Part shown: positions 3,251 to 61,200 of the stretch, piece by piece
Position numbering within the stretch: position 1 is the stretch's first letter
Layout: each line of letters begins with the position of its first letter
IMG/VR virus record: IMGVR_UViG_3300037189_025222
Coordinates: 62,001 to 126,000 of that record
Direction: 5' to 3' (one strand)
From: a virus
DNA: 64,000 nucleotides
Made by a program: the position numbers and the translations under genes
Notes under the pieces: generated by a model
The model's input: the letters and a program-made list of their open reading frames with translations, nothing else
What the model was told of the DNA's origin: nothing
The model's database searches: none

Positions 3251-3258
3251 CAATAATT

Positions 3259-3436
3259 AGACCATTTCTAGCGGTGCGTGATTGAATGCAAGGAGCGACA
3301 GCTGCGCAAACCTTGTGGCAGTCCTAAACGTGAATCTGTCTCCGGGGATCTGAGATTCCCGTCACGGGTTCGTTGGGTAAAAAAGATGCTTTATGGGTGT
3401 CTGGCCGATTTTATCCAACCACCGCTAGAATGGTCT
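3259..3436 (+). ncRNA. Structured RNA candidate closed by a 17-bp terminal helix
   Basis: Bases 3259-3276 pair with 3420-3436 (AGACCATTTCTAGCGGTG against CACCGCTAGAATGGTCT, one bulged T). Inside are further helices: GTTGGGTAAAA with TTTTATCCAAC (one G-U), TGCAAGG with CCTTGTG, and a hairpin around AATCT/AGATT. No convincing ORF occupies it (a 60-codon GTG frame lacks a ribosome-binding site). It lies after the 2981 gene with no element between, and before the element at 3447. Role unknown. Confidence 0.7.
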
Positions 3437-3492
3437 CTCGATTTTATTTGTACCCTATAAAGTTGTAATAAATAACTCCCAAGGAATAAAAA

Positions 3493-4798: not shown

Positions 4799-4925
4799 CG
4801 TAATCCCGTTCCCAACATGGGAACCAATGATTATTCGTGGCCCGTGGTTCCCGAAGCCAGATTTGAAGATTTTTTCTGAGCCTGAGGAACAGAATTGTAC
4901 CCTACAAGATCAGTCTAATTCCTAA
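4788..4925 (+). CDS. Possible overlapping TTG-start small protein
   Basis: 45 codons from a TTG at 4788, overlapping the 4667 gene by 11 bases, with GAGAGAGG 8-12 bases upstream. Pro/Trp-rich start (VIPFPTWEPMIIRGPWFPKP). The frame reads through the element at 4894, which then encodes NCTL, and stops just before the next ribosome-binding site. Plausible but weak. Confidence 0.35.
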   Translation: MSRDVIPFPTWEPMIIRGPWFPKPDLKIFSEPEEQNCTLQDQSNS

Positions 4926-4938
4926 CTTGGAGATAACG

Positions 4939-5544
4939 ATGGACGCTGCAACTTTTGACAAGCTGACTCGGGGTGACGAATACCAGACTTTCTTTGCTCT
5001 TATGGAGTCTCTTGGCTATAAAAAGGTTCATGTGAACTACAGTGGTGGTGGTGATAGTGGTGGTACTGACAGTATTGACTTTTTGCCAGTTCCTAAAGAC
5101 AAAAACAAGGACGAGAAGTACGATATTCAGCGACGTATTTCAGAGCATTTTGAGGAGTTTCTTTCCAATCCCATCTACAGCCGTCACGGCAGCTTTGCAG
5201 ACGGTGGTGGCTATAGCGTCGATGGCGTGGTTGTTTGGGACATTCCCAACAAAGCAGTGACCATTGAAGGCACTGAGCATAATTGGGGATACAACGACAG
5301 CGAGGAAGATGATGAAGAGGAAGTTTGTGAAGATACGGGGTTTGAAGAGCCTGTCTATTCTTTTGACGAAGGCAGTCCCGATCATGCTCGTAGCTTTGAA
5401 GTTCTTTGCTTTTATGTTCGTAATATCTTGAAGAAGAAGTTGCCCGAGGTTCTCCATAATCGGGTTCTTGCCGCTATCATTGAGGGCGATGAGAGTGCTA
5501 AGGATTACGTTGCTTTCTTGGAAGAACAGAAGGAGAAGGTGTAA
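4939..5544 (+). CDS. DUF6878-like conserved phage protein, longer paralog
   Basis: 201 residues from the ATG at 4939 (GGAG at 4929-4932). Residues around 25-50 carry VHVNYSGGGDSGGTDSIDFL, matching the core of the gene at 518, followed by a YSVDGVVVWDIPNKAVTIEG strand region and a very acidic stretch (SEEDDEEEVCED). First gene of a three-gene run: its stop overlaps the next start (TAATG at 5543). Function unknown. Confidence 0.75.
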   Translation: MDAATFDKLTRGDEYQTFFALMESLGYKKVHVNYSGGGDSGGTDSIDFLPVPKDKNKDEKYDIQRRISEHFEEFLSNPIYSRHGSFADGGGYSVDGVVVWDIPNKAVTIEGTEHNWGYNDSEEDDEEEVCEDTGFEEPVYSFDEGSPDHARSFEVLCFYVRNILKKKLPEVLHNRVLAAIIEGDESAKDYVAFLEEQKEKV

Positions 5545-7613: not shown

Positions 7614-7624
7614 GCGTCAATAAT

Positions 7625-7668
7625 CACCGGCTCTAGATGAATAGTCTGGAGCCGGTGAAGGGCTTTTC
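7625..7668 (+). terminator. Intrinsic terminator
   Basis: CACCGGCTC at 7625-7633 pairs with GAGCCGGTG at 7649-7657, followed by AAGGGCTTTTC. It lies just after the 7071 gene and before the element at 7690. Confidence 0.8.
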
Positions 7669-7719
7669 TATCCAAACTTCTAATTAAAAATTGTACCCTA
7701 AGAGACTAAGGAGCAAACA

Positions 7720-13283: not shown

Positions 13284-13679
13284 ATGACTTTCAATCTCAA
13301 TGAGTATTTTGCTAATCCGGCTAATTTCACTAAGCATGGCAGTAGCTTTGTCATGTTCAAGCGGATTTTTTGTGCCGATGGTCTGACTTTTTCTGCTCAA
13401 GTTAGGGAGAGTGCTTACTGCACTCCCCGGCAAGACAATGGCCCATGGACTGCCGTGGAAGTCGGCTTTCCCAGTGAGAAGGTCGATGAGTTTATGCAGT
13501 ACGCAGAGAATGCCGATGACCCCACTGGCACTGTGTATGGTTGGGTTCCGGTCGAGGTTGTGGAGCAAGTTGTTGAGAAGCATGGTGGTCTTATGCTCCA
13601 AGAGAGTAAGGAAGCAAAAATCACTGAACTCAACAAGCAAATCAAAGAGCTTCAGAGTAAAGTCAAAGAGCTGTCTTGA
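13284..13679 (+). CDS. Conserved phage protein with C-terminal coiled-coil
   Basis: 131 residues from the ATG at 13284 (AAGGAGAAACCGA); the TTG at 13254 is in the element. Recognised blocks: LNEYFANPANFTKHGSSFVM, ESAYCTPRQDNGPW, AVEVGFPSEKVDEF and VYGWVPVEVVE, seen in many phages. Residues 105-131 (KEAKITELNKQIKELQSKVK) are a coiled-coil, so it probably oligomerises. Function unknown. Confidence 0.75.
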   Translation: MTFNLNEYFANPANFTKHGSSFVMFKRIFCADGLTFSAQVRESAYCTPRQDNGPWTAVEVGFPSEKVDEFMQYAENADDPTGTVYGWVPVEVVEQVVEKHGGLMLQESKEAKITELNKQIKELQSKVKELS

Positions 13680-13723
13680 TTTGTACCCTATGTTTTTGTG
13701 AATAACCCCCTTTGGAGATAATC

Positions 13724-13963
13724 ATGAAAGCTATTGTTGCCGGACAGACTAGCCGGGGAAACGATTACTATAAGTTTGAAATGAGCGAGCAAGAGTTTGT
13801 TGCTTGCGACAATGACAATGAAGGCTTGTGCGTCTTTTGCGGCGAGCCAGCTTATGATGTTGAACCCGATGCTCGTAAGTATGCTTGCGAAAGCTGTGAG
13901 AAGAACGGTGTTTACGGTACGCAGGAACTCTTGATGATGGGATACATCAAGTTCACTGAATAG
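13724..13963 (+). CDS. Zinc-ribbon protein of unknown function
   Basis: 79 residues from the ATG at 13724 (TTTGGAGATAATC). CVFCGEPAYDV and YACESCEKNG give two CxxC pairs of a zinc ribbon about 20 residues apart. Its stop (13961-13963) overlaps the first bases of the structured RNA that follows. Confidence 0.7.
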   Translation: MKAIVAGQTSRGNDYYKFEMSEQEFVACDNDNEGLCVFCGEPAYDVEPDARKYACESCEKNGVYGTQELLMMGYIKFTE

Positions 13964-14093
13964 CCAGTTGTAGGTCGGCCCATATGGTAAGGGTCACGGC
14001 AAGGGTTGAATTATATGGGAAAACAAAAGGTTTGCTGAAATAAAATGGGCTAAGCCCGGCGACACTCCCGCCCCGTGACTACCCGCAACTGCT
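13962..14093 (+). ncRNA. Pseudoknotted structured RNA candidate
   Basis: Outer helix: 13962-13970 with 14086-14093 (AGCCAGTTG/CAACTGCT, one bulge). Helix A: CCCATAT 13979-13985 with ATATGGG 14013-14019. Helix B: GTCACGG 13993-13999 with CCGTGAC 14073-14079; B starts inside A and closes outside it, so the two form a pseudoknot. A small hairpin GGGCTAAGCCC lies at 14047-14057. No ORF is present. The next element is at 14102. It resembles no RNA family I can name. Confidence 0.7.
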
Positions 14094-14144
14094 AAATATA
14101 AATTGTACCCTAAAAGTTTGTTCGATCCCCAAAGGAGATAAGCA

Positions 14145-14453
14145 ATGACTTGCTACATCATTGACGAAAACAACGAGCTTGGCCTTGGCGATGATGTTGA
14201 AATCGGTGTTGAAGTGAATTACACCGCCAACAGTGCTTCCGGCCCTAGCTGGAATGAATGGAGCGGTGGAGATCCGGGTTCCTCGGCTTTCCTCGACATT
14301 CATGGTTGGTCTGTCGATTCGATCACGGTCGGAAAGACTCTGGTTGATTATGACACTCTGCCTGAGGAAACTAAGAAAAAGATCGACGGTTTTATCGATA
14401 GCAGCTTCGATGACATCGAAGCTCAAATCTGGGCTTCAGTGAGCGATGGGTGA
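14145..14453 (+). CDS. Protein of unknown function
   Basis: 102 residues, ATG after AAAGGAGATAAGCA. Acidic; beta-rich first half (VEIGVEVNYTANSASGPSWN), helical second half (TKKKIDGFIDSSFDDIEAQI). It resembles phage proteins with a V-x-Y-x-x-x-G-x-P-x-x-W core of unknown function. Confidence 0.65.
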   Translation: MTCYIIDENNELGLGDDVEIGVEVNYTANSASGPSWNEWSGGDPGSSAFLDIHGWSVDSITVGKTLVDYDTLPEETKKKIDGFIDSSFDDIEAQIWASVSDG

Positions 14454-14512
14454 AGGGGCTTGACAAACTAATTGTACCCTGTAAAATGGAAGCAACACCC
14501 CCCGGAGATCCA

Positions 14513-14785
14513 ATGATGACAAGCGTTTATGCGAAGATTACTGGTCGTGGCGAGTTTCCAATGGATATGCTGCGGTATGACAGTTGCAGCCCTGCTACTG
14601 AGTCCGACAGCTATTTGATTGCTCGCACCTTTCATGACTTTGATAGGTGGGAGATTTTTGTGAAGTGCCGCCCGCTGGAGAAGAGGCGTTCTCCTTGGAC
14701 GGTTGGCAGGTGGGAGAGCTTCGGTTGCAAGATCGAAGAAATTGACTATCATCCGCCACTTACCCGCAACACACAGCTTGCCTAA
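14513..14785 (+). CDS. Protein of unknown function
   Basis: 90 or 91 residues from paired ATGs at 14513 and 14516, after CCCGGAGATCCA. The longer GTG frame from 14450 spans the element at 14471. Arg/Trp-rich C-terminal half (RRSPWTVGRWESFGCKIEEI). Its stop lies 6 bases before the tRNA. Confidence 0.65.
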   Translation: MMTSVYAKITGRGEFPMDMLRYDSCSPATESDSYLIARTFHDFDRWEIFVKCRPLEKRRSPWTVGRWESFGCKIEEIDYHPPLTRNTQLA

Positions 14786-14791
14786 GCTGTT

Positions 14792-14874
14792 GCCGAAGTG
14801 GTGAAATTGGCATACACGCCAGACTCAAAATCTGGTGCCCAAAAGGCGTGTGGGTTCGACCCCCACCTTCGGCA
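14792..14874 (+). tRNA. tRNA-Leu, anticodon CAA
   Basis: Acceptor stem GCCGAAG/CTTCGGC, D-arm TGGTGAAATTGGCA, anticodon stem CCAGA/TCTGG with loop CTCAAAA (anticodon CAA, reads UUG), a long class II variable arm TGCCCAAAAGGCGTG, and T-arm GTGGG-TTCGACC-CCCAC. No CCA is encoded. The class II arm and anticodon make leucine secure. It lies in a protein cassette rather than a tRNA cluster; the right-arm genes use UUG often enough that a supply role is plausible (inference). Confidence 0.96.
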
Positions 14875-14899
14875 TATTTAAATTGTACCCTAACAAAAC

Positions 14900-14974
14900 G
14901 TTCCGATGGTGCCAACGCATTCGCTAGGTGTTGGGCTTGGGTAAATGGTTGCCTTCTCAACCAGCCAACGGAAC
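14900..14974 (+). ncRNA. Three-way-junction RNA element in a leader
   Basis: GTTCCG (14900-14905) pairs with CGGAAC (14969-14974). Inside are two hairpins: CCAAC 14912-14916 with GTTGG 14930-14934, and GGTTG 14947-14951 with CAACC 14958-14962. It begins just after the element at 14882 and is followed by the usual CCCCAACGGAG leader of the 15005 gene, so it could be a regulatory 5' leader or a separate small RNA. Confidence 0.55.
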
Positions 14975-15004
14975 ACTGATCTTAACCCCAACGGAGATAA
15001 CCAA

Positions 15005-15262
15005 ATGGATAACTATGTTCATTTTGATGGTGAGTACGCTGATATTCCTGAGCTTACCCAAGGTGCTATCTTGCGGTATGTGCTTCAAAAGATTCCCCCC
15101 GGCAGTTTTCTGACGGCGGTTCTTTGCAATGACCTCTATAACGCAACGGGTAGGGCAGATGCAAATAATCTGGTAGCTCTGCCTCTTATCGTGCGATGGT
15201 TTGCTAACAAGTGTCCGCATCTTTACGGTGCAGATAATATGTACAAGTACCTCGGCACCTAA
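15005..15262 (+). CDS. Conserved small phage protein
   Basis: 85 residues from the ATG at 15005 (CAACGGAGATAACCAA). Core RYVLQKIPPGSFLTAVLCND followed by GRADANN is a pattern I know from many phages (IPPGSFL-x-AVL-x-ND...GRAD-x-N). Helical; function unknown. Preceded by the structured leader at 14900-14974. Confidence 0.75.
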   Translation: MDNYVHFDGEYADIPELTQGAILRYVLQKIPPGSFLTAVLCNDLYNATGRADANNLVALPLIVRWFANKCPHLYGADNMYKYLGT

Positions 15263-17082: not shown

Positions 17083-17105
17083 TTCATCATTATTGACATT
17101 CAAGC

Positions 17106-17143
17106 AGACCCTTGAGATAAATCTCAGGGGTCTATTTTTATTT
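17106..17143 (+). terminator. Intrinsic terminator merging into an element
   Basis: AGACCCTTGAGAT (17106-17118) pairs with ATCTCAGGGGTCT (17121-17133), followed by ATTTTTATTT which is the start of the element at 17141. Confidence 0.9.
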
Positions 17144-23344: not shown

Positions 23345-23351
23345 AACGTGT

Positions 23352-23408
23352 GCTAGGGGCGGCAAGGCTCTACGGCCAAAAGCCGCGAAACTGCTAGCCG
23401 CCCCTAGC
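23352..23408 (+). terminator. Long hairpin with an internal stem
   Basis: GCTAGGGGCGGC (23352-23363) pairs perfectly with GCCGCCCCTAGC (23397-23408); a second stem CGGC/GCCG lies inside at 23373-23385. It ends the 22964 gene and is followed by CCGTTGGGGTACTTAT, the same tail as the repeated hairpin module. Confidence 0.7.
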
Positions 23409-23480
23409 CCGTTGGGGTACTTATAAATAATTGTACCCTAAAAGTGTGTTGCGAACGCCCCTCTTTTTCAAGGATGAAAA

Positions 23481-24214: not shown

Positions 24215-24260
24215 TAGGGTACAAATAAAATAAAAAGGGATATACAATAATTGTACCCTA
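24215..24260. repeat. Inverted pair of the 11-base element
   Basis: TAGGGTACAAA at 24215-24225 and ATTGTACCCTA at 24250-24260. The preceding GGCCA resembles GCCCGCCA before the copies at 25630 and 26741, so terminator plus inverted pair recurs as one unit. Confidence 0.75.
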
Positions 24261-24267
24261 TAACAGT

Positions 24268-24382
24268 GTGAATGATTGCGAGGCCGCACCATCGGCACTA
24301 CTGTCCGGTTGCAAACGGCAGTAACTCGCGGGAGCGGTATGCCGAAAGGCAGCGAGTGGTGCACCCCATCGCAATCGTTCAC
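24268..24382 (+). ncRNA. 115-nt structured RNA occupying its own cassette
   Basis: It begins 8 bases after the element at 24250 and ends 10 bases before the one at 24392. A 14-bp terminal helix pairs GTGAATGATTGCGA (24268-24281) with TCGCAATCGTTCAC (24369-24382), one G-U. Nested within: GCACCA with TGGTGC, ACTG-t-CCG with CGGCAGT, CTCGC with GCGAG, and a TGCC-GAAA-GGCA hairpin with a GNRA loop whose strand TGCCGA could also pair with TCGGCA near 24292. No ORF fits on the + strand. Not a tRNA or any RNA class I can name. Confidence 0.85.
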
Positions 24383-24436
24383 AACAAAACAATTGTACCC
24401 TAGAAAAGTGTTCGATTCACCCCAACGGAGACGATC

Positions 24437-25270: not shown

Positions 25271-25282
25271 CGATACGGCATC

Positions 25283-25314
25283 GGGGGCGGGAGGAACTAA
25301 CAACTCCCGCCCCC
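25283..25314 (+). terminator. GC-rich hairpin after the 24830 gene
   Basis: GGGGGCGGGAG (25283-25293) pairs with CTCCCGCCCC (25304-25314+). No T run follows; same style as the hairpin at 19256. Confidence 0.65.
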
Positions 25315-25379
25315 ACTAGCCGTTTGTGCAATTGTACCCTATTGGTTTGTGTGATTCGTCCCTTTACTTTGGAGCAGTT

Positions 25380-43284: not shown

Positions 43285-44155
43285 TTATATTCTTTCTTTG
43301 ATTAATATATTCTTTAGCTAGATTTGAAATATAGAAAACATTTTCTGACTGATGTGAATTAGCAAGTAATTCAAACGGATTGCCAAAAGACATAAACATT
43401 GGTGGAGTATATGAAAACATAGACTTATAAAAATTTTTACCTACACCATTTTTATAGCTTATAAAGTTGCCAGTACCTTCTGAATTAGCTGGCACAGTTA
43501 AATACTGGCCGTGTATAACCATATTACTTCTGTTTTGAAACAGAGATATACACAGAGCTACTTTAGAAGTTTCACTCCAAACCTCTTTGTTGTCAAGCAT
43601 CTGTTGGAGTGCTAGTTTTTCCATATTTTCTATCATCATCGAAATAAAGCCGATATGAATATTTGAAAAACCATAGCAACCGCTAACAGAATGCCAATTT
43701 TCTTTTAATTCTTCTTCTTTTATATTGAAAATTTCAAGAAATTCATCTCCAATATTTTCTTTTACAAAATCTAAAGTAAACAAAGGATCTACCGAGTAAA
43801 CACATTCAGGGAAGTTTGTCAAAAACACAGCTTCGCTTGGCTGTCTGTAAAGAACTGTGTCGTTCTCTAAAACAAAAAAAGATTCTTTTATAATATCATT
43901 GAATAGAGAAGAGTATAAAGAATAAAATTTGTTGAATCCTTTTACTTCTTTTGCTTCATCTATATTTTCAAAAGTGTTTATGTTTTTAAGCTTTTTAATA
44001 CCTGTGTTGTAAAGCTCTAATGATTGTGAGTCTTTTTTATTTGTTAGAGCCACTATCAATTTATCAGTGCATCCTTGGTTTTCAAAGCTTTGCACCATTA
44101 AGTCTAATTGCCATTGGTAGTAAGGCTCATTGTCTAAATATAAGAAGTATTGCAT
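43277..44155 (-). CDS. GT-A-like glycosyltransferase candidate
   Basis: 292 residues. YFLYLDNEPYYQWQLDLMVQ at the start, then CTDKLIVALTN and SFFVLENDTVLYRQP, a Rossmann-like start and a near D-x-D acid motif (E-N-D). HSVSGCYGFSNIHIGFISMM and MFMSFGNPFELL follow. Overlaps the patatin gene by 8 bases. Similar in layout to virus glycosyltransferases but weaker than the others here. Confidence 0.55.
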   Translation of the reverse strand: MQYFLYLDNEPYYQWQLDLMVQSFENQGCTDKLIVALTNKKDSQSLELYNTGIKKLKNINTFENIDEAKEVKGFNKFYSLYSSLFNDIIKESFFVLENDTVLYRQPSEAVFLTNFPECVYSVDPLFTLDFVKENIGDEFLEIFNIKEEELKENWHSVSGCYGFSNIHIGFISMMIENMEKLALQQMLDNKEVWSETSKVALCISLFQNRSNMVIHGQYLTVPANSEGTGNFISYKNGVGKNFYKSMFSYTPPMFMSFGNPFELLANSHQSENVFYISNLAKEYINQRKNIND

Positions 44156-58200: not shown

Positions 58201-61200
58201 AAGGAATAGCAGACATACTTTCTGGAGCCTCTGAAGTTACCAAACAAATAATGGAAACCAAAGATAAAATAATTGGAATAAAGTCTGCACGAGGATGGGG
58301 ATTCTTTAGAAAAGATTATGTCGTATTAATGGAAACAGGCAGAAAAGCCTTAGTTGAACTTTCCAAGCCAATTATAAATTATATAGAATCTATTAGGGAT
58401 TTTGCTTCACAAGTGGGTGCTAGATTAGATCCTAGACTAGCAGCGTCTATGGCCAGAGGAGTAGCTGATGTATTGACAGCTTCTGGCGACGTTACAGAAG
58501 GAATAATGAAGACCAAAGATAAATTGGTTACCATTAAATCAAGCGAAGGATTCTGGTTATGGAGCACTAGCATAGCAGACTCCATGAAAGCAGGAGTTGT
58601 AGCTTTAAATACATTAAAACAGCCATTAATGTCGTACTTAGATACTATTGTTACTTTCTCAAATGAGCTCAAAGACAAGATCAACCCGACTGATGCTAAG
58701 AAGGCGGTAAAGTCAATAACAAGTGTTTCAGAAGTAATAGACATGATCAGCAAAGTCATGAATGATCTAGGTTCAAAAATTGCACCAATGACACAAGGAG
58801 GATGGTTTACCAGTTCTCCTGTAGAACAGATTAAAGAAGCAAAAACAAAAATGGATGCGTTTTTCCCTGTGCTTTCTAGCTTCATTACATCGATTGTTTC
58901 GCATGTAGATTCTTCTTTGGGTGAGTCCAAGAGTCTAAAGGGAACTGTTAAGTCCATGGGTCAAATATCAGAGCTTTTAAACAATATTAAGCCTGTAGTG
59001 GACACCATGATGTCTTCAATTGTTCCAATGACTCAAGGTGGGTTCTTTAAAGGTTCAGCAGTTGATAGCATCAAGGGTGCAATACCACAGTTAAATCAGT
59101 TTTTTGAATCAATATCAAGCTTTATATTAAACGGGTTAGTTAATCCAATTAAGAAGTCTGCGGAGAGCATTGATGACTTAAAGGAAACAGGCAAAAGAAT
59201 TGTAGTTATTGCAGATGTTCTTAAAGGAACAAAAACTTCTATTGACTCTTTGTCGTCTATGATGACTTTGATGCAAGATGGAATATTTACAAATTCACCA
59301 ATAAAAACAATATCCAATAATATAACTGGTTTTTCTGATTATTTTAATGCTATATCAAATTTTGTAAGTAGTGGATTAATCGAACCAATAACAAAAATGG
59401 GAGAAGTAAGTGGACTTAGCAAAGCAAAAGGAATTCTAATAACTGTCGGCAATTTCCTATGTGCCACCAAATTAACTATAGAAAGCTTAGCTGGGGTTAT
59501 TGGTTTGTTGGATTCAAAGTCAGTTTTTTCCTCTTCTCCAATTGACAATATAATTAATAATAAAGATAAATTTAGAAAACACTTTTTAGCGATAGCCGAC
59601 CTTGTAAAGAATGGAATTGCAGAGCCTGTTGCTCTAATGGGCGGAGATGGAACTTCTTTAGGTAAAGCAGCAAAAGTTATAACAGCTATGGCCTCAATAG
59701 CTTGTAGGATTGTACCATTAATAAAGAATTTAGCTACTGCTGTTTCAATGGCTACAGATAAGACAGAGTTTTTTAGTGTAGCACCCATGCAAAAAATAAT
59801 TGATGCTAAAGGTCAATTTGCAGTATGGTTCCAGCAAATAGCAGCTTTTGTTAGAGACGGCATTGTTCTGCCTGTCAATAATGAGATGGAGGGGGTCAAT
59901 ATAGGTTCAGCTGCTAAGAATATATCCTCCATGACCAGCATAGCTGGTTCTGTTATGCCCCTTATAAAGAATCTAGCCAATGTTATGGGCATGATGAGTG
60001 AAGATGCAGCAAAATCTTTAGACACAGAATTTCCTATAGACAAAATTATATCCTATAAAGATAGCTTCGCCATATTTTTCAGACAAACAGCAGGATTCAT
60101 TAGAGATGGAGTTATTGCTCCAATTGTAGAAGAAATAAAAGATACACAGGAAATAACAAAAGCAAGTAGGATATTAAATCAATTAAGCTCTAATATTGTT
60201 ACCATACCAAAAGTTATAAAAGGAGTTTCTGAGGGTTTAATTCCGCTGGTAGAAGTGAGGTCAGGTCTAGCTCCTATGGAAGTTATAGCTGACTCTGCAA
60301 AAGATTTTGAAAAATGGTTTACAAAAGTAGCAGTCTTTATTAGAGATGGAGTAGTAACTCCAATCGTGAGAGAGTTTGAGGGAACACAAGATATTATTTT
60401 AGCCACAAGAATACTAAACAATATATCTTCAATGATCTCAGCTTTACCTAAGGTTATAACAAGTCTATCCAGTGTTTTTGTTGGACTAAACGCAAAAAGT
60501 TGCCTATCAGAATCTCCAATAGGTATGCTTGCAACTAATGCTGAGACTTTCAAAGCTTGGTTCAGAAGCGTCACTAGTTTAATACAAGAAGGTATAATTA
60601 AGCCATCTCTTGAAATAATGCCAGATAATTCTTTGCTTAAAGAAGTAAAGGTAAAATTAGCACTCAACGAGATAGCAATCAGAGCGGTAACCCCTTGGTT
60701 GAATTCTTTGAGTTCTAGCATCCAAGGATTATCTGGTGGTATTTTCTGGAGAATATTTACTGGAATTAAGGTTTCTAAGTTTAGTAAAAACTTCATGTAT
60801 ATGGCCAGCCTAATAAATGATGGCCTCATAAAACCAATAAAGAAGAATCTTGCTTCTTCTGCGGAATTAGAAGAAGTTACAAGTCAACTTGATGGTTTAG
60901 TTGATGTGGTAGACAGAGTTACATTTATACTAGGAATATTAGGAACAGCCTTTAACAATATAAGCCCAGTTAAAATAGATGTGGGCAAGATGTTCAGTGT
61001 AACTGGGAGCATACGTGCTTTTAAAGAAGCCATAAACGAAGAGGCTAAAGATAAATTAGCATTATCCAGACAAATGCAAGGAGAGCTACAAGAAGTATTC
61101 ATGGCTCCAGAAAAAATGATGAGGCAAGTTAGTGAAAAAGCTGTTGGGGGGACTTTTGAAGCCAAAGCTGTAGAGCCAATTATATTCGGAGACGCAGAAG

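Follow-up and report, generated by a model that had tools for sequence, protein, structure and literature searches.

Phage T4 encodes two stable RNAs, C and D, of about 120 to 140 nt, which are known as transcripts and are of unknown function. The locus described here, positions 13962 to 14093 on the + strand of the window (the whole 64,000-nt stretch of DNA that was analysed), is of similar size and also lies near phage tRNA genes, a likeness drawn from descriptions only. It differs in that RNAs C and D are known transcripts in T4, whereas the present stretch is known from sequence alone. A comparison may also be made with the hairpins of phage 3′ untranslated regions and intercistronic gaps: on the coding strand, the stretch likewise follows a stop codon and precedes a promoter-like element, and a strong hairpin occupies that place in many neighbouring units. 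However, it is larger than such hairpins (132 nt), has a multibranched or pseudoknotted outline, lacks a U-run, and is of no exceptional stability.

The strand order of its inner helices (A, B, A′, B′) also resembles P1, P2, P1′, P2′ in the nested double pseudoknot of HDV-like ribozymes, but a 3-bp P3 whose C-rich loop could form P1.1 is not apparent, and the stretch is enclosed by an outer helix and has neither a plausible cleavage site nor an Rfam match. An HDV-like ribozyme was therefore set aside as unlikely, because its defining parts were not found and there was no match to an HDV-type Rfam family. The non-coding RNAs of this giant-phage lineage appear to be unstudied, and if the RNA is made and folded as drawn below, it would add an undescribed structured RNA to the lineage.

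Genome setting and promoter-like separators

The window belongs to an uncultured jumbo phage (record G000, 146 kb), and the 381-kb IMG/VR contig IMGVR_UViG_3300032334_002567 was identical to this record over all stretches compared. The phage terminase has relatives at 50 to 73% in IMG/VR, and its relative in LR756511.1, an uncultured phage of 595 kb, stands at 49%; the proteins neighbouring the RNA are almost without relatives. Over its first 27 kb, the window is made up of short genes, almost all of which are on the + strand, and most of these genes have AATTGTACCCTA upstream. Elements of this form span positions 473 to 26855 of the window and 38 to 62 kb of G000, and the counterpart in another relative is TTGTACCTA.

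In the window, the sequence TTGTACCCT occurs 57 times, where 0.4 copies would be expected, and across roughly 50 kb of G000 the separator element was counted 72 times on the + strand. In a related phage of 532 kb, G041, the element reads TTTAGnnnTTGTACCCTA and likewise precedes small genes. There, and at some sites of the present phage, the separator makes up one arm of the inverted repeat GGTACAA...TTGTACC. We read the separator as a putative promoter, and in a genome punctuated by 70-odd identical elements of this kind, unexplained non-coding stretches are easily listed.

One separator, TTGTACCCT at 13681 to 13689 (+ strand), opens the cassette of interest, and is followed by a + strand ORF (13724 to 13963, with the SD-like sequence GGAGAT) that encodes a 79-aa zinc-ribbon-like protein. 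The zinc-ribbon label is weak (Pfam E value of 0.035, below the cut-off), yet the gene itself is real, and its product has a 54% identical homologue in the Bdellovibrio phage phi1422. The first-pass annotation had placed the RNA in a gene-free cassette, but the separator-bounded unit (13681 to 14102) contains this gene, and the RNA is the gene's 3′ tail, reaching from the stop codon to the next promoter-like separator. The latter, at 14103 to 14111 (+ strand), lies between the RNA and gene 14145-14453. The tail itself was described as non-coding, and we agree: the sole ATG frame within it has 19 codons (starting at 13984) and no ribosome-binding site, and a hidden gene was rejected on these grounds.

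The gap between stop codon and separator is 139 nt here, compared with a median of 36.5 nt in the region, and it calls for an explanation because this genome packs its stop codons against promoters. Some other long gaps of this type contain tRNAs or large multibranched folds, and others have strong structures with z values of −2 to −7.6, examples being the gaps at 1343-1408, 2335-2383, 7614-7690, 17083-17141, and 25271-25331.

Pairings of the tail and competing folds

The helices proposed in the first-pass annotation are present at the positions given there, all on the + strand. The outer helix P1 is formed by 13962-13975 and 14081-14093 (12 base pairs, interrupted by one bulge and one mismatch, as AG/CU, CAGUUGU/GCAACUG, and GGU/ACC); its first bases overlap the TAG stop codon (13961-13963) of the zinc-ribbon-like gene, and it spans the 139-nt gap from end to end. 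Enclosed by P1 are helix A, CCCATAT at 13979-13985 with ATATGGG at 14013-14019, which two extra G-U pairs extend to 13987, and helix B, GTCACGG at 13993-13999 with CCGTGAC at 14073-14079. These two 7-bp Watson-Crick helices interleave, with loops of 7 nt from A to B, 13 nt from B to A′, and 53 nt from A′ to B′. The long third loop contains two hairpins, GGGC-TAA-GCCC at 14047-14057 (−6.1 kcal/mol alone) and GGCG-ACACTCC-CGCC at 14058-14072 (−5.7 kcal/mol alone), and the second of these abuts the 3′ strand of helix B.

The triple of helices was evaluated against chance at two scales, the segment and the window. When the 142-nt segment alone was shuffled with dinucleotide composition preserved, the triple was obtained in 0 of 3000 shuffles and the interleaved 7/7 pair alone in 39 (1.3%). 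The window-wide count is also relevant, since the first-pass annotation could choose from 64 kb, and here 12 triples were found that combine an outer helix of 6 bp or more with two interleaved helices of 7 bp or more, all inside 140 nt, compared with a mean of 10.35 in shuffled windows. Ranked by helix energy, the triple was sixth in the window, and 0.7 equally good triples were expected per shuffled window.

We also compared the knot with nested folds by means of an approximate pseudoknot-aware energy estimate devised for the present analysis. By this estimate the proposed knot, which was also the best knot in an independent enumeration, had an energy of −36.9 kcal/mol, whereas that of the nested fold was −41.9 kcal/mol, about 5 kcal/mol better. 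The knot energy was equalled in 5% of the shuffles, the energy gap between nested fold and knot was matched by 17%, and the nested minimum free energy was ordinary for the composition (z of −0.03 to −0.61). In the nested fold, CCG at 14073-14075, which helix B needs, pairs instead with CGG at 13976-13978, and helix A has a 6-bp competitor in GCCCAT/ATGGGC (13978-13983 with 14045-14050). Therefore, of the pseudoknot as first described, the complementarity is real, but the knot was not supported beyond chance in the window as a whole and does not have the lowest predicted energy. The knot is thus possible rather than established, and it would compete with one or two other inner folds.

Known families and searches for relatives

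The first-pass annotation had found no fit to a riboswitch that it could name, and this was borne out, as no Rfam 15 family was matched over the stretch by covariance model. In the window as a whole, the tRNA-Leu gene, matched over 14792-14874, was the sole match above the gathering score. With E values of up to 10 allowed on 13900-15010, nothing was matched over 13962-14093, and the nearest hit was a snoRNA-type chance match ending at 13955. Besides lacking Rfam support, a riboswitch is argued against by position: the tail would lie outside the 5′ UTR of the next gene, as the separator at 14103-14111, a presumed promoter, intervenes before the gene at 14145. Nor was a conserved aptamer seen, no homologue having turned up by covariance model in roughly 2 Mb of DNA from phages or by blastn among the named phages.

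Several further identities were rejected. RNase P, a group I intron remnant, and a tRNA or tmRNA remnant had no covariance-model support, and their strand order or position did not fit. A simple scan of 13600-14200 gave 0 sites with a G+C-rich hairpin and T-run, and by that scan the tail is not an intrinsic terminator because it lacks a U-run. Knot-aided read-through of the stop codon was also discarded, as the frame beyond the TAG reaches a TAA after eight codons.

Homologues of the RNA stretch were sought by several routes. By blastn, none was found among 50,697 records of named phages or among 40 terminase-related records, and a search of IMG/VR with an exact 19-mer pattern gave no homologue beyond the identical contig of the same phage. 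Two covariance models (R1 and R2, one of P1 with helix B and one of P1 with helix A) gave no homologue in 34 records, nor in 1.38 Mb of DNA mostly from terminase-related phages and otherwise from the present phage; both were built from a single sequence, and so distant relatives that share only the fold could be missed. The matches listed for a 14-base pattern of the helix B/P1 core in IMG/VR were chance hits only, and neither synteny nor the neighbouring proteins led to a divergent homologue.

In phi1422 and LR745208.1, the homologues of the zinc-ribbon-like gene are immediately followed by the next coding sequence, and there is no comparable tail. We therefore rejected the view of the RNA as a conserved companion of this gene. 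Taken together, apart from the identical contig, no homologue of the RNA was found among the named phages, beside the relatives of the zinc-ribbon-like gene, or in the phage DNA examined, which amounted to about 2 Mb.

Readings of the tail and other structured elements

The tail is probably a structured 3′ UTR specific to this lineage, and it may be released as a small RNA. Our leading but tentative reading is that 13962-14093 is the structured 3′ untranslated tail of a jumbo-phage zinc-ribbon-like mRNA and has a role at the mRNA end. Transcription from the TTGTACCCT element at 13681 would run into the tail, which the 12-pair helix may close from the stop codon to just short of the next separator. 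The resulting structure could block 3′ exonucleases, and the tail would keep the zinc-ribbon unit apart from the promoter-led unit that follows, a role that strong hairpins may have in neighbouring units. We infer the transcription start, the end protection, and whichever inner fold is chosen; the function is argued from context, namely the length of the gap, the end-to-end P1, and the structured tails nearby. Against a role at the mRNA end are the ordinary nested energy (z of about −0.6), unlike that of the strong hairpins in other gaps, the lack of a U-run, and the missing tail behind the gene's relatives in phi1422 and LR745208.1.

It is possible, but rather unlikely, that the stretch is a separate trans-acting small RNA, perhaps pseudoknotted, that is cut from the zinc-ribbon transcript. 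The tail occupies the position within its unit that tRNA-Leu 14791-14875 occupies in the unit of gene 14513-14785, and that tRNA must itself be cut from the tail of its gene. The phage also has a gene-free unit at 24251-24393, whose fold is very stable (z of −5.8), as well as a multibranched RNA at 3251-3447 (z of −4.9), and the rank of the knot in the independent enumeration is in keeping with this reading; however, the tail has an ordinary folding energy, no homologue was found in the searches above, and there is no independent promoter-like element directly upstream of it. We consider it somewhat less probable that there is no specific structure at all, the gap being spacer or decayed sequence in which chance complementary 7-mers were picked by eye. 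The near-chance number of triples in the window, the nested z of about 0, an energy rarity for the knot of only 5%, and the absence of the stretch from all other phages examined are what such a gap would give, but 139 nt of idle sequence would be odd in a genome so tightly packed, all the helices fall in one compact gap that P1 spans, and none of the 3000 segment shuffles yielded the triple.

It is very improbable that the tail regulates gene 14145-14453 in cis from its 5′ side, as a riboswitch or otherwise: although the tail lies upstream of this gene on the same strand, a promoter-like separator intervenes, and no Rfam riboswitch or leader was matched. A broader grouping, which we hold to be improbable, would place 13962-14093, 24266-24384, 3259-3436, and perhaps 14899-14976 in a set of sequence-unrelated, helix-closed, non-coding phage RNAs interspersed with the small, promoter-punctuated genes of this jumbo-phage lineage, the first two with a pseudoknotted core and each of them new.

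The gene-free unit at 24251-24393 lies between two separators and contains about 120 nt closed by GTGAATGATTGCGA/TCGCAATCGTTCAC, with inner helices TCGGCA/TGCCGA and ACTCGC/GCGAGT that could interleave. It had no Rfam match, no homologue was found in the searches made with it, and its non-coding stretch, 24260-24392, is clearly a far stronger candidate for a non-coding RNA than 13962-14093. The segment at 3251-3447, flanked by a stop codon and the separator at 3448, has a multibranched fold of 170 nt with AGACCATTTCTAGCGGTG/CACCGCTAGAATGGTCT as its closing strands; it also had no Rfam match and is a far better RNA candidate than 13962-14093.

Upstream of the window (4866-5135 of stretch L101, G000 59866-60135) is a tRNA gene with the anticodon UCA, which corresponds to the stop codon UGA. 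Its anticodon loop is split by an insert of roughly 195 nt that matches the group I intron family (52 bits in Rfam), and the spliced tRNA according to ARAGORN is 73 nt long with a short variable loop; it is possibly an opal suppressor. A 64-nt structured element, GCTAGGGGCGGC...GCCGCCCCTAGC, was found in two 98% identical copies 30 kb apart (23346-23409 of the window and 14837-14900 of L100), each between a stop codon and a separator. The segment 14899-14976 is a hairpin-rich 78 nt closed by GTTCCG/CGGAAC and lies in the 5′ leader of gene 15005-15262, and a large structured non-coding gap with a z of −3.8 is present at 3767-3985 of L100 (G000 43767-43985).
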